Shown here one piece after another: positions 118 through 34,742 of a DNA stretch of 35,160 bases (within the stretch, counting starts at the first letter, position 1; each line of letters begins with the position of its first letter). The DNA lies in contig JAPSFT010000034.1 of NCBI GenBank assembly GCA_035063765.1, forward strand, positions 1 to 35,160, given 5' to 3'. Both the position numbers and the translations under genes were made by a program. This DNA comes from Deltaproteobacteria bacterium (GTDB taxonomy: Bacteria > Myxococcota_A > UBA9160 > PR03). The notes beneath the pieces were generated by a model. That model was not told where the DNA came from and did not search any database. It worked only from the letters and a program-made list of their open reading frames with translations.

Positions 118-1599
118 CTAGAGCCGCAGGCACACCGACTTCACCTCGGTGTAGAGCTCGAGCGCCTCGCGGCCCATCTCGCGGCCCCAGCCGGACTGCT
201 TGTAGCCGCCGAAGGGCAGGGCGGCGTCGAAGACGTTGTAGCAGTTGATCCACACCGTTCCGGCGCGCAGCTTCGCGGCGACCCGGTGGGCGCGGCCGAC
301 GTCGCGGGTCCAGACCGCCGCGGCGAGCCCGTAGATCGTGTCGTTGGCGGCGGGCAGGACCTCGTCCTCGCGCGAGAAGGGCAGGGCCGCGACGACCGGG
401 CCGAAGATCTCCTCCCGGACCACCTTCGTCTGCGGCTTGGCGTCGACGAGCACGGTCGGCGCGACGAAGTAGCCCCGGTCGCCGACGCGCTGGCCGCCGG
501 CGACGGCGCGCGCGCCCTCGCGGGCGCCCGCGTCGAGGTAGCCGCAGACCCGCTCGAGCTGCTCCTGCGAGACCAGCGGGCCCATCTCGGTCGCCGGGTC
601 GAGGCCGCGGCCGAGGCGGATCGCGCGCGCCTGCTCCGCCACGCCCTCGACGACCTGGTCGAAGAGCGGGCGCTCCACGTAGAGCCGGGAGCCGGCGACG
701 CAGCACTGGCCGTGGTTGAAGAAGATCGCGTGTGCGGCGCCGGCGATCGCGAGCTCCGGGTCGGCGTCGGCGAGCACGATGTTGGGCGACTTCCCGCCGA
801 GCTCGAGCGACACCTTCTTGAGATTGCCGGCCGCGGCCTGCACGATCCTGCGGCCGACCTCGGTGGAGCCGGTGAAGGCCACCTTGTCGACGCCCGGGTG
901 GGCGGCGAGCGCGGCACCGGCCGTCTCGCCGAAGCCCGGCACGACGTTGAGGACACCGTCCGGGAAGCCCGCCTCGCAGGCCAGCTCCGCGAGCCGCAGC
1001 GCCGAGAGCGGCGTCTGCTCGGCGGGCTTGAGGACGATCGTGCAGCCGGCCGCGAGCGCGGGGCCGAGCTTCCAGGCCGCCATCAGGAGCGGGAAGTTCC
1101 AGGGGATGATCTGGCCCACGACGCCGACCGGCTCGCGCAGCGTCCAGGCCGCGTGCCCCGGCACCGAGATCGGGATCGTCGCGCCCTCGACCTTGGTGGC
1201 CCAGCCCGCCATGTAGCGCAGGCAGTCGACCGCGAGGGGCACGTCCGCGGCGCGTGCCACCGTCACCGGCTTGCCGTTGTCGAGGCTCTCGAGCTGCGCG
1301 AGCTCCTCGGTGTTGGCCTCGAGGAGATCGGCGAGCTTCCAGAGCAGGCGCCCGCGCTCCGAGGGCGTCATCGCCGGCCACGGCCCGGCGTCGAAGGCGC
1401 GGCGCGCCGCGCGCACCGCGCGGTCCACGTCCTCGCGGTCGCCTTCGGCGACCTCGGCGAGCCGCTCGCCGGTCGCGGGATCGAGGCTCTCGAAGGTGCG
1501 GCCGGAGGCAGCCTCCACCCACTTGCCGTCGATCAGGAGCGGACGGCGGCGGCCGACGAAACGGCGGACCTCGGGCTGGAGCTCGATCGCGGCGGACAT
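118..1599 (-). CDS. NAD(P)-dependent aldehyde dehydrogenase
   Basis: A 493-residue member of the ALDH superfamily that oxidises an aldehyde to the carboxylic acid using NAD(P)+. Visible landmarks are the PWNFP motif (N168), the cofactor-loop FTGSTEVG near 242-249, the general base in LELGGK (E266) and the catalytic Cys in GQCC (C300 by alignment with ALDH2-type enzymes). The length fits the family. The ATG at 1599 was chosen over an upstream in-frame ATG at 1683 because GAGGAGG sits just ahead of it and homology begins shortly after. It is the last gene of the TetR/Coq4-like unit, separated from the previous gene by 124 bp holding a strong hairpin. The substrate cannot be told; betaine-aldehyde-like or general aliphatic/aromatic aldehydes are possible. 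Confidence 0.93.
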   Translation of the reverse strand: MSAAIELQPEVRRFVGRRRPLLIDGKWVEAASGRTFESLDPATGERLAEVAEGDREDVDRAVRAARRAFDAGPWPAMTPSERGRLLWKLADLLEANTEELAQLESLDNGKPVTVARAADVPLAVDCLRYMAGWATKVEGATIPISVPGHAAWTLREPVGVVGQIIPWNFPLLMAAWKLGPALAAGCTIVLKPAEQTPLSALRLAELACEAGFPDGVLNVVPGFGETAGAALAAHPGVDKVAFTGSTEVGRRIVQAAAGNLKKVSLELGGKSPNIVLADADPELAIAGAAHAIFFNHGQCCVAGSRLYVERPLFDQVVEGVAEQARAIRLGRGLDPATEMGPLVSQEQLERVCGYLDAGAREGARAVAGGQRVGDRGYFVAPTVLVDAKPQTKVVREEIFGPVVAALPFSREDEVLPAANDTIYGLAAAVWTRDVGRAHRVAAKLRAGTVWINCYNVFDAALPFGGYKQSGWGREMGREALELYTEVKSVCLRL

Positions 1600-1723: not shown

Positions 1724-2308
1724 TCAGGCGAGCGCGCGGAGCACGAGCCAGACCCCCGCCACCGGCAGCGCCAGCAGCGCGGCCGCCTGCAGCAGCGAGG
1801 CGGCGCTCCAGACGCCGAAGGAGAGTGCGTCGCCGAGCGTCGCCGGAGGCACCGGGCGCTCGAGCCCGAGCTCGCGGCGCAGCTCGCCCACGGTCTTGTG
1901 CAGGAGCGCGTCGGACCAGCGCTCTGCGTAGAGGCTCCGGGTGTGGCGCCCGCGCACCCAGGCGCGCCAGGTCCGCAGCGGCGCCACGAGCAGGCCCACC
2001 GCGATGGCCGGCATGGTGATGACCCAGGCGAAGACGTAGCGGCCGCAGCCGGTCGCCAGCTCCCAGGCGCTGATCTCGGCCTCGCCGGTCCAGCTCGGCT
2101 CGTAGAAGGTCGCGACGTGGTGCAGGTCGTGCATCGCGATCGCGCGCCGGCGCGCGTCCGAGTTGGGAAAGGCCACGATCGGGATCGGGCCGAGCTTCTT
2201 CAGCACCACCGTCCGGGCCGAGTAGCCGCCGTCCTCGGGGAAGCCCGACTCGCGGAAGAAGCGCGCCCGCGCCTCGCCCACGCTGCTGCTCACGTCCACG
2301 TCCATCAT
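1724..2308 (-). CDS. Membrane protein with Coq4-like HDxxH-x11-E motif
   Basis: A 194-residue protein. Residues 60-64 read HDLHH and, exactly 11 residues later, E76. This matches the HDxxH-x(11)-E putative metal-binding signature of Coq4, a ubiquinone-biosynthesis protein. The rest is not a full-length Coq4. A hydrophobic segment lies near 92-112 and another near 165-192, so it is probably bound to the inner membrane with the motif on the N-terminal soluble part. Two ATG codons are adjacent (2308, 2305). AGGAGA, formed by the last codons of the upstream TetR gene, is the ribosome site, and the gap is 3 bp, so the two genes are co-transcribed. Lipid or quinone binding or modification is an inference from the motif alone. 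Confidence 0.75.
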   Translation of the reverse strand: MMDVDVSSSVGEARARFFRESGFPEDGGYSARTVVLKKLGPIPIVAFPNSDARRRAIAMHDLHHVATFYEPSWTGEAEISAWELATGCGRYVFAWVITMPAIAVGLLVAPLRTWRAWVRGRHTRSLYAERWSDALLHKTVGELRRELGLERPVPPATLGDALSFGVWSAASLLQAAALLALPVAGVWLVLRALA

Positions 2309-2311
2309 CGC

Positions 2312-2965
2312 CTATCTCCTCTTGCGGGCGCGCGCGTCGGAGTGCGGGGCCCCGGGTGCGGCCAGCCCCTCGAGCTGCAGCTCGAGCGCGCGGCGCAGCC
2401 CGGGTGCGACGCTCTCGGCCGGGAGCAGCTCGCTGCCGAGCCAGCCGAGGATCCAGAAGGTGTAGTGCGCGTAGCAGGCCATCGCGGCGGTCTGCGGCTC
2501 GACGTCGGCGCGCAGCTCGCCGCGCGCCTGTGCCGCGCTCACCAGCTCGACGACGTGCGCGGCGTACTCGCCGGAGAGCCGGCCGATCCCTCCCGGCTCG
2601 TGCGGGCGGAAGAAGAGCTCGCGCACGATGGCCTTGGAGAGGGCGGGGTTGCCGGCGTAGTAGTCGAGGAAGCAGCGGAACAGGCAGAGGAGCTGCTCGA
2701 CCAGGCCCTCGCGGCGCAGCGCCTCCATGCGCCCCTCCGCGAAGAGCCTCCGGGCATCCGCCTCGAAGCAGAGGAAGAGCAGCTCGCGCTTGTCGCGGAC
2801 GTAGAGGAAGAGCGTGCCGGTGCCGATCCCGGCCCGCTCGCAGATCTCCCGCGCGGTGGTCGCGTCGAAGCCCTTCGCGTGGAAGAGCGAGCGGGCCGCG
2901 GCCGTGATCCGGGCCAGCTTCTCGCGCTTGTTCCGCTCCCGCAGGCCGAGGGCCGGCTCGGACAT
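2312..2965 (-). CDS. TetR/AcrR-family transcriptional regulator
   Basis: A one-domain repressor of about 217 residues. The N-terminal helix-turn-helix is clear: residues 20-65 contain the typical ITAAARSLFHAKGFDATT and the AREICERAGIGTGTLFLYVRDKREL segment in two adjacent stretches. The C-terminal two-thirds is the variable ligand-binding, dimerising domain. An ATG at 2971 is also in frame, but GGAGG directly abuts it. The ATG at 2965 has GGAGG six bases upstream and is the better start. It heads the unit with the Coq4-like and aldehyde dehydrogenase genes. A strong promoter overlapped by a 26-bp palindrome lies just upstream, so autorepression relieved by a small hydrophobic or aldehyde-type ligand is likely. 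The ligand is unknown. Confidence 0.93.
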   Translation of the reverse strand: MSEPALGLRERNKREKLARITAAARSLFHAKGFDATTAREICERAGIGTGTLFLYVRDKRELLFLCFEADARRLFAEGRMEALRREGLVEQLLCLFRCFLDYYAGNPALSKAIVRELFFRPHEPGGIGRLSGEYAAHVVELVSAAQARGELRADVEPQTAAMACYAHYTFWILGWLGSELLPAESVAPGLRRALELQLEGLAAPGAPHSDARARKRR

Positions 2966-2978
2966 GGCCATCCTCCAT

Positions 2979-3004
2979 GAACGCGATCAATTATGATCGT
3001 GTTC
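2979..3004. promoter_or_regulatory. Palindromic operator, probably for the adjacent TetR regulator
   Basis: The 26-bp site has half-sites GAACGCGATCA and TGATCGTGTTC around a 4-bp AT centre. Eleven positions per arm pair except one (G against T). It covers the -10 box of the minus-strand promoter, a usual position for TetR self-repression. It also lies between the TetR unit and the plus-strand kinase/lyase pair, so it could influence both. Confidence 0.75.
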
Positions 3005-3017
3005 TTTTATATGGCAA
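2990..3017 (-). promoter_or_regulatory. Sigma70-like promoter of the TetR unit
   Basis: On the minus strand TTGCCA (3017-3012) and CATAAT (2995-2990) are separated by 16 bp. Each box differs from consensus at one position. Transcription would start near 2983, giving a leader of about 18 nt that ends in GGAGG before the ATG at 2965. This AT-rich island stands out against the GC-rich surroundings. Confidence 0.7.
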
Positions 3018-3135
3018 GGCCCCCGCGCGTGTCGGTCCCGGAGGGACCCCAGGGTCGCGCGTGGTAGGCTGCCCCGGCGCCGAGGGGAGGGACGTGCTGC
3101 TCGGGATCCCCGGTTCCACCGCTGACGGGGTCGCG

Positions 3136-3243
3136 CACCCCGGCGGGCTCCCGCACCCCGGCGGGCTCCCGCACCCCGGCGGGCTCCCGCGCTCCGGCGG
3201 GCTCCCGCGCTCCGGCGGGCTCCCGCACCCCGGCTGGCGCCCG
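3136..3243. repeat. 18-bp tandem repeat, six copies
   Basis: Six head-to-tail copies of an 18-bp unit (CACCCCGGCGGGCTCCCG type) fill most of the stretch just ahead of the FGGY kinase. Copies 1-3 are identical, copies 4 and 5 share CGCTCC in place of CACCCC, and copy 6 is diverged. The frame reads HPGGLP/RSGGLP on the plus strand, but nothing supports translation. There are no spacers, so it is not a CRISPR array. The rest of the 3005-3263 gap shows no gene. Confidence 0.9.
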
Positions 3244-3263
3244 CCCGCGCGCCGGCCTGTCCG

Positions 3264-32962: not shown

Positions 32963-34361
32963 TCAGTGGGTGCTGGCGAGGTGGGCGCGGTCGAGGCGGT
33001 GTGGGAGGAGTAGATCGAAGTGCTCGGGACGAGTGGCCTTTGGGATCTCGGTGAAGAGGTGGCGTAGGTAGGCGTAGGGATCGAGGCCGTTCGCCTTGGC
33101 GGTCTGGACGAGGCTGTAGAGGTTGGCGCTCGCCTGGGCGCCGCCGACCGTGTCGGCGAAGAGCCAGTTTTTGCGGCCGAGCGCGAAGGGGCGGATGGCG
33201 TTCTCGACCGCGTTCGTGTCGATCGGGATGCGCCCGTCGTCGAGATAGCGCACGAGCTTCGGCCACTGGCGGGCGACGTAGCCGAGCGCCTGGCCGGTGA
33301 GGCTCTGGGGCGGGACGCTCGGGAGCGCCGTGTCGAGCCAGGCGCGCAGCTGCGCGACGAGCGGCCGGGCCTCGCGCTGGCGGACGTCGTGGCGCTCTTC
33401 GGCGCTCGCGCCGGCAACCGTGCGCTCGATCCGGTAGAGGCGCTGGATCCACGCGAGCCCCTGCTGGGCGCGGCTCTTGCGCAGCGAGGGCGAGGGGCCC
33501 TTGTCGCCCGCCTGGCCCTTCAGGGCCTCGTGGAAGCGCCGCCTCGCCGCGCTGCACCCAGACGTAGGAGAGGCTCTCGGCCGGCTTGCCGGGCTCTTTC
33601 AGCACCTGGAAGCGCGACTCGTCGCACTGCACGAAGCCAGACGCGAGGATCTCCTCGCGCATGCGGTTCACGAGCGGCTGCACGAGCTCGCCGCAGCGCA
33701 CCATCCACATGGCCAGGGTGGCCCGCGAGAGATCGATCCCGAGGCGTCCGAGGATCTGCTCCTGGCGGTAGAGCGGGAGCGCATCGGCGTACTTCGAGAC
33801 CGCCACGTAGGCGAGGAGCGACGGCGAGGCCAGGCTCTTCGGGATCGGTTGCGGGGGGAGCGGGGCCGTGTGCACGCCGGTCTTGCAGGTGGGGCAGCCG
33901 TAGCGGGGCCGCACGTGGACGAGCACCCGGGCCGTGGCCGGGACGAACTCGAGCTGCTCACTGCTCTCGCGGCCGATCTCGACGAGCGCGCTCCCATCGT
34001 GCGGGCAGACCTTCTCGGCCTCGGGCAGGTCGTGGAGGATCTCCTCGCGGGGCATCCAGGCCGGCAGCGGCCGCCGGCCGCGCGGGGTCCGCGTGTGGGC
34101 CGCGACTGCGATGCCCGGGGCGTCGGCGGCCGCGCGCTCTGCCGCCGCGAGCACTTCGGCCTCGTTGAAGAGTCCGAGCTGGCTCCGGTGGCTCTGCTCG
34201 CTCTTCGCCCCGAAGCGCTGGCTCTTCAGCAGCCGGATGTACTCGCGCAGCTGCGCGATCTCGACGTCTCGCTCGGAGAGAGCGGCATCGAGCGCGATCA
34301 CACGCGCTCGAAGGCTCTCGACATCGCTCGGGATCGCCCCCATCTCTACCACGGAGCGCAT
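32963..34361 (-). pseudogene. tnpC: IS66 transposase tnpC, inactivated by internal deletion and frameshift
   Basis: The N-terminal part (from ATG 34361 to about 33545) shows a coiled-coil start, IS66 zinc-finger motifs (CPHDGS and YGCPTCKTG) and the first catalytic Asp in VQCDESRF (D247). It ends in YVWVQRGE. The sequence then continues in another frame as ARRRFHEALKGQAGDKG and runs to NAVENAIRPFALGRKNWLF, which carries the catalytic Glu, and stops at 32963. In complete relatives about 55 residues lie between these blocks, including the DGY segment with the second catalytic Asp and the CWAH motif. Those are missing here. The junction lies near 33537-33553. The protein cannot be made as one chain and lacks a catalytic residue. 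Confidence 0.88.
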
Positions 34362-34388: not shown

Positions 34389-34742
34389 CTACCGGACCGA
34401 AGAAAACGACAGCTCCGCGTGCGGCCGCAGCCGGAACACGTCGATGCCGTCGAGCAGCCAGTTGAGCTCGCGCCCCGTCACCGCGAGCACCGCGTCCTCG
34501 CCGCCGCGCGGCCACGGGAAGCGATCCTTCTCGAGCCGCTTCTGCCACAACACGAAGCCGTTGCGCTCCCAGACGAGCAGCTTCACCTGGTCGCGCCGCC
34601 GGTTGCAGAAGCCGAAGACGTGAGCCGAGAAGGGATCGAGCGCCAGATCCTCGGCCACCAGCGCCGAGAGCCCGTTGATTGCCTTGCGGAAGTCCACCGC
34701 CTCGCGGCACAGGTGGACGCGCACCGTCTCGAGCGGCCGCAT
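34389..34742 (-). CDS. tnpB: IS66 accessory protein TnpB (Orf2)
   Basis: A 117-residue IS66 Orf2-like protein needed for transposition in family members that encode it; its biochemical role is not settled. The family pattern is plain: VHLCREAVDFRKAINGLSAL, then DPFSAHVFGFCNRRRDQVKL and GFVLWQKRLEKDRFPWP. The ATG at 34742 overlaps the tnpA stop by 4 bp (ATGA). It is complete and tnpC follows after 27 bp. Confidence 0.95.
   Translation of the reverse strand: MRPLETVRVHLCREAVDFRKAINGLSALVAEDLALDPFSAHVFGFCNRRRDQVKLLVWERNGFVLWQKRLEKDRFPWPRGGEDAVLAVTGRELNWLLDGIDVFRLRPHAELSFSSVR

Follow-up and report, generated by a model that had tools for sequence, protein, structure and literature searches.

A short Coq4-like protein of 194 residues, encoded in a genome of the Myxococcota_A, belongs to a real, divergent branch of the Coq4 family which is equipped with a dedicated regulator in part of its members. 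The function of Coq4 was unknown until recently. A reconstructed ancestral COQ4 catalyses the Zn2+-dependent C1 decarboxylation of a ubiquinone precursor, and double mutants of its metal site (HDxxH/E) are inactive (PMC7615680). In a review, a human-cell study is cited which terms COQ4 an oxidative decarboxylase (PMC11495197). The cyanobacterial Coq4 protein Alr8543 binds oleate plus two Mg2+, the latter via the motif HDxxH-x11-E (PMC9774615). A partial literature search found no paper on the short Coq4 clade described here.

Organization of the locus

The window, i.e. the whole stretch of 35,160 nt that was analysed, comprises positions 1 to 35,160 of contig JAPSFT010000034.1 (assembly GCA_035063765.1; Deltaproteobacteria bacterium; Myxococcota_A; UBA9160; PR03). 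The features of the locus are as follows.

118-1599, minus strand: aldehyde dehydrogenase gene (PF00171, 616 bits)
1724-2308, minus strand: short Coq4-like gene (194 aa; open reading frame confirmed)
2312-2971, minus strand: TetR-family regulator gene (PF00440, E 1.4e-13), of the TetR cluster found directly upstream in 13/51 loci
2978-3005, minus strand: predicted TetR operator, two TGANCNNGNTCA half-sites with a 4-bp spacer: AGAACACGATCATAATTGATCGCGTTCA
2990-3017, minus strand: sigma-70-type promoter-like site TTGCCA-16-CATAAT (10/12 matches; mean in shuffled sequences 0.0)

Between the stop codon of the TetR gene and the start of the Coq4-like ORF there are 3 nt, and a gap of 124 nt separates the Coq4-like gene from the aldehyde dehydrogenase gene on the same strand. 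No terminator was found between the latter two genes, which are possibly co-transcribed here. An alternative ATG of the TetR gene at position 2965 has a better-placed Shine-Dalgarno sequence and may be the actual start codon.

Two further elements of the window may be mentioned. An 18-bp GC-rich unit is repeated in tandem in 6.6 copies (3126-3244) between the TetR promoter and the start of an FGGY kinase gene. Near the right contig end, fragments at 32963-33253 and 34389-34742 resemble parts of an IS66-type transposase set, as judged from the sequence only.

Homology of the short protein to Coq4

A preliminary description of this DNA had reported an exact HDxxH-x11-E signature in the 194-residue protein, and the signature is indeed there: MHDLHHVATFYEPSWTGE is present in the ORF product, with H60, D61, L62, H63 and H64 together with E76 making up the motif. 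The sole family match of the protein is Pfam Coq4 (PF05019) with 14.6 bits, which is under the gathering score of 22.9 and leaves profile positions 1-120 unmatched; the closest homologue just attains the cut-off, and 35/51 short members match at E<1 (best E 3.2e-5). In the Myxococcota genomes and GTDB contigs searched, about 50 short homologues with roughly 31-71% identity were found, some of them scattered in metagenome-assembled genomes (MAGs) of Acidobacteriota, Verrucomicrobiota, Bacteroidota and Gammaproteobacteria. The plasmid and phage collections searched gave no match. That homologues might not keep H60, D61, H64 and E76 had been named beforehand as a refuting outcome; all 51 sequences keep them, and these residues together with E83 and A116 are the six invariant columns of the 51-sequence alignment.

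As a single-sequence phmmer search of the 194-residue protein against the PDB gave no match, a profile was needed. The 51-sequence profile hit only two PDB chains, both of them Coq4 (3msq, E 8e-6; 6e12, E 5e-5), with which HDxxH and E of the short clade align residue for residue. The comparison with a Coq4 profile that had been proposed at the outset was carried out by hhalign against 29 full-length Myxococcota Coq4s and gave a probability of 99.2% (E 3e-19, residues 6-155); here, the first helix of the short protein was also aligned, namely to the 'PxGSLGr' helix of Coq4. Since Pfam Coq4 is the sole family match, the PDB search finds only Coq4 chains and the profile-profile comparison is this clear, the motif is judged to reflect true Coq4 homology and not chance.

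Predicted structure and metal site

AlphaFold2, run on the alignment, gave a model of the 194-residue protein with pLDDT 95.8 and pTM 0.90 and with helices at residues 10-21, 51-67, 73-86, 92-108, 110-121, 134-137, 140-146 and 158-193. Four of these are of particular relevance.

Residues 51-67: HDxxH helix, carrying H60, D61 and H64
Residues 73-86: helix of E76 and E83
Residues 92-108: hydrophobic helix, counterpart of a Coq4 helix made more hydrophobic
Residues 158-193: added C-terminal hydrophobic helix

Searches with Foldseek and VIA-align matched the model only to the Coq4 structures 6e12 (Z 9.3, 128 residues) and 3msq (Z 8.7, 123 residues), the next, unrelated structure having Z 2.0. Middling Z values are common among helical proteins, a caution which is offset by the sequence profile independently picking the same two chains. 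Together with an rmsd of 4.4 A and an identity of 18-24% over the aligned fold, the Z values speak for a distant homologue with a shifted periphery. For a full-length Coq4 paralogue, AlphaFold2 run without an alignment reached a pLDDT of only 40.9, which is no basis for a comparison between models.

The fold was earlier thought to lack the Coq4 length, a view that the model corrects: residues 5-151 superpose on residues 78-216 of Alr8543 (6e12), so the core fold is kept, and about 60 N-terminal residues are missing. The lost N-terminal helices may be part of the Coq4 substrate pocket. Likewise, of the membrane helices said to have been added, the predicted tail helix is an addition, whereas helix 92-108 already exists in Coq4. 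The short protein thus shares with Coq4 (PF05019), Alr8543 and Npun02000094 (3msq) the HDxxH-x11-E motif, the core fold and the C-terminal motif G-R-x-x-x-L...elR.eL, and differs from the two cyanobacterial proteins in its shortened N-terminus and its hydrophobic C-terminal helix. The equivalents of H60, D61, H64 and E76 in Alr8543 are H120, D121, H124 and E136, the residues of its two-Mg2+ site (PMC9774615). When the boundaries of the helices are used to construct an ideal hairpin, a crude and weak approximation, distances of about 7 A or less are possible for the tested pairs among the side chains of H60, H64, E76 and E83.

A clade separate from full-length Coq4

The proposal of a distinct Coq4-related branch is supported by homology, fold, the invariant metal residues and the phylogeny. 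A core-region tree, which is based on few columns and a short search, has long branches and leaves out eukaryotic Coq4, keeps the 51 short sequences apart from 29 full-length ones by a single branch with SH-aLRT 98, so that the short proteins fall outside the clade of full-length Coq4 as sampled. Position 83 is Glu in 51/51 short proteins and in 0/29 full-length Coq4s, eukaryotic COQ4 not being among the sequences compared. The median number of residues before HD is 58 in the short clade versus 116 in the full-length proteins, and 38/51 versus 0/29 have a strongly hydrophobic stretch at the C-terminus. The tail is absent in a Polyangium-type group (L046-L053), so it was either gained later or lost in that group. 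In sum, computation strongly supports the short proteins as a separate, monophyletic Coq4-related clade.

Besides the short gene, the studied genome has two genes for full-length Coq4, which exceed the cut-off with 60.4 and 52.6 bits. Directly upstream of a full-length Coq4 paralogue and on the same strand, there is a gene for an AurF-type diiron N-oxygenase (PF11583, E 8.8e-15), and the two (G000:C17; L005:1450-3184) may form an oxidation pair. In Myxococcota genomes of the same order (e.g. G026, G016, G050, G110), full-length Coq4 is multi-copy with up to 7 genes per genome; the member of this order studied here is of the menaquinone type.

The TetR regulator and its predicted operator

The conserved partner of the short Coq4-like gene is the upstream TetR gene and not the aldehyde dehydrogenase gene; of the two neighbours stressed in the preliminary description, only the former stands. 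In the 13 TetR-linked loci, the regulators belong to one homology cluster, which is confined to the directly adjacent upstream place within the range -5 to +5 around the short Coq4-like genes of the 51 loci, and in several cases the TetR and Coq4-like genes share 4 nt. As 38/51 loci have no adjacent TetR gene, this regulation is not universal. Members with a linked TetR lie dispersed in the tree (8 changes), which means either an ancient pairing with frequent losses or repeated gains.

A double half-site, TGANCNNGNTCA-N4-TGANCNNGNTCA, is found in front of the TetR gene or between divergent genes. With spacers of 1-5 allowed, 13/13 TetR-linked loci match it with at most 2 mismatches, a count which is partly circular because the motif was derived from some of the same loci (L060 was left out of the derivation). 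TetR-unlinked loci are mostly at chance levels, the closest matches being L074 (2 mismatches, zero spacer) and L046 and L092 (3 mismatches each). Independent support comes from three sides: at dyad positions 4/25 all four letters occur, yet they are complementary in 9/10; in the 4.4-Mb genome, 2978-3005 is the only site with at most 1 mismatch; and in related genomes nearly every such site sits at a TetR/Coq4-like locus. The exceptions are in two genomes. In G129, the double operator recurs at the start of a TetR paralogue (L144:894-1523) whose divergent neighbour is a sulfatase-like gene. In G088, a second operator of this type (L143:1281-1308) is located just before a SAM methyltransferase gene, which is possibly co-regulated. 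Conservation of the predicted operator is strongly supported by these computations.

The promoter-like site at 3017-2990 is the only one in the region, and the predicted operator overlaps it. With an operator over its own promoter and sites nearly confined to such loci, the TetR protein looks like a local autorepressor that would bind the predicted site and have the Coq4-like operon as its main target. In its HTH domain (PF00440), the palindromic site over its own promoter and the adjacent target, it resembles TetR autorepressors with lipid or aromatic ligands such as FadR and KstR, but its matches to these and similar proteins are weak, its target is a Coq4-like gene and its operator was derived in the present analysis.

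Neighbouring genes and quinone setting of the host

The aldehyde dehydrogenase was rejected as a functional partner, as it is the downstream neighbour in 2/48 loci only. At the locus of the closest homologue (L054), it is absent and a gene for a CBM9-like protein takes the downstream place. Clusters of molybdopterin oxidoreductases, SDRs and DUF1552 proteins were likewise rejected as partners, being present in 3-7 loci at scattered positions. Around the short Coq4-like genes, no recurrent biosynthetic neighbour hinting at a substrate was found.

As described earlier, quinone genes are not found beside the short Coq4-like gene, and this is also the case at the homologue loci. In the genome, MenD (468.7 bits) and MenA are present, while searches for UbiD, COQ7 and MqnA/D found none of them. 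Five good matches to the UbiA family comprise two heme O synthases, MenA, a MenA-like protein and a decaprenyl-phosphate phosphoribosyltransferase-like protein, and thus no UbiA-type 4-HB prenyltransferase. As the MAG is 96% complete, the absence of the ubiquinone markers searched for is likely though unproved; with MenD and MenA, the host is of the menaquinone type. Ubiquinone synthesis is thus an unlikely role for the short protein, and Coq4-type proteins occur here without this pathway being visible in the genome. Cyanobacteria likewise have Coq4-type proteins without ubiquinone synthesis, and a Synechococcus control was matched in the Coq4 profile search.

Proposed function and alternatives

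Because the short clade retains all metal-site residues of COQ4, the favoured reading is that it carries out metal-dependent chemistry with a lipid-soluble molecule, and the substrate cannot be a ubiquinone precursor if the genome has been read correctly. With confidence and doubt in balance, we propose a TetR-derepressed, membrane-anchored divalent-metal enzyme whose chemistry would be Coq4-like (of the decarboxylase type) and whose substrate would be a lipid outside ubiquinone synthesis. Its metal site (Zn2+/Mg2+) would lie at a lipid-binding groove and be formed across a hairpin, whose first helix supplies H60, D61 and H64 and whose second supplies E76; E83, two turns beyond E76, probably enlarges the site. 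The C-terminal hydrophobic helix would anchor the protein in the membrane, by which a lipid-soluble substrate could come in sideways. Most likely, a hydrophobic carboxylated compound, aromatic or prenylated, would be decarboxylated with the help of the metal or would undergo a related step. The adjacent TetR, acting on its own promoter, would repress the operon in the absence of a hydrophobic effector, which is probably the enzyme's substrate or a related compound and would free the promoter. Like the eukaryotic C1 decarboxylase, the short protein has the metal signature needed for COQ4 activity (PMC7615680), and unlike it, it has a membrane tail, a TetR gene next door and a host in which ubiquinone markers were not found. 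Somewhat more tentatively, the whole clade can be regarded as a separate, membrane-anchored enzyme family on the Coq4 fold (site H60/D61/H64/E76/E83), whose members would act on demand on an isoprenoid or aromatic lipid other than ubiquinone, some of them under a TetR that senses this lipid, mainly in Myxococcota and scattered in the four other groups named above.

A non-catalytic role is less probable but deserves weight: the protein would bind lipids or quinones as a chaperone or would organise a complex, using the metal site to steady a lipid groove and the tail as a membrane tether. Coq4 was for long proposed as an organiser of the CoQ complex (PMC11495197), a scaffold role once having been suggested for yeast Coq4, the structure of Alr8543 was solved with a bound fatty acid (PMC9774615), and metabolic neighbours are not conserved. 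However, invariance of the metal-ligand positions and E83 in 51 homologues from several phyla is stricter than binding needs, and COQ4 itself has decarboxylase activity (PMC7615680). We consider it rather improbable that the protein acts in a quinone pathway by trimming, oxidation or repair of menaquinone or a derived side quinone. The menaquinone-type genome with its second, MenA-like prenyltransferase (L127) and the action of Coq4 on prenylated rings would fit, but quinone genes are not nearby at any of the loci, and the gene is probably dispensable, given that no copy was detected in a same-genus genome (G060, 93% complete). Least probable is a detoxification of aldehydes or aromatic acids, in which the dehydrogenase would yield a carboxylate to be decarboxylated by the Coq4-like protein. 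Gene order argues for it through the same strand, the short gap and the missing terminator, as does a dehydrogenase scoring best, though below cut-off, against phenylacetaldehyde dehydrogenase models; the rarity of this neighbour among the loci and its absence next to the closest homologue argue against it.

Significance

A short, membrane-tailed Coq4 relative under its own TetR, in a host without signs of coenzyme Q synthesis, makes it probable that the Coq4 fold here serves a different lipid-soluble molecule. Why bacteria that lack ubiquinone have relatives of Coq4 is still unexplained, and such a pared-down Coq4 with a membrane tail and a single regulator gene of its own makes the question approachable: the TetR ligand would reveal the class of compound, and the small core which part of Coq4 is sufficient for catalysis.
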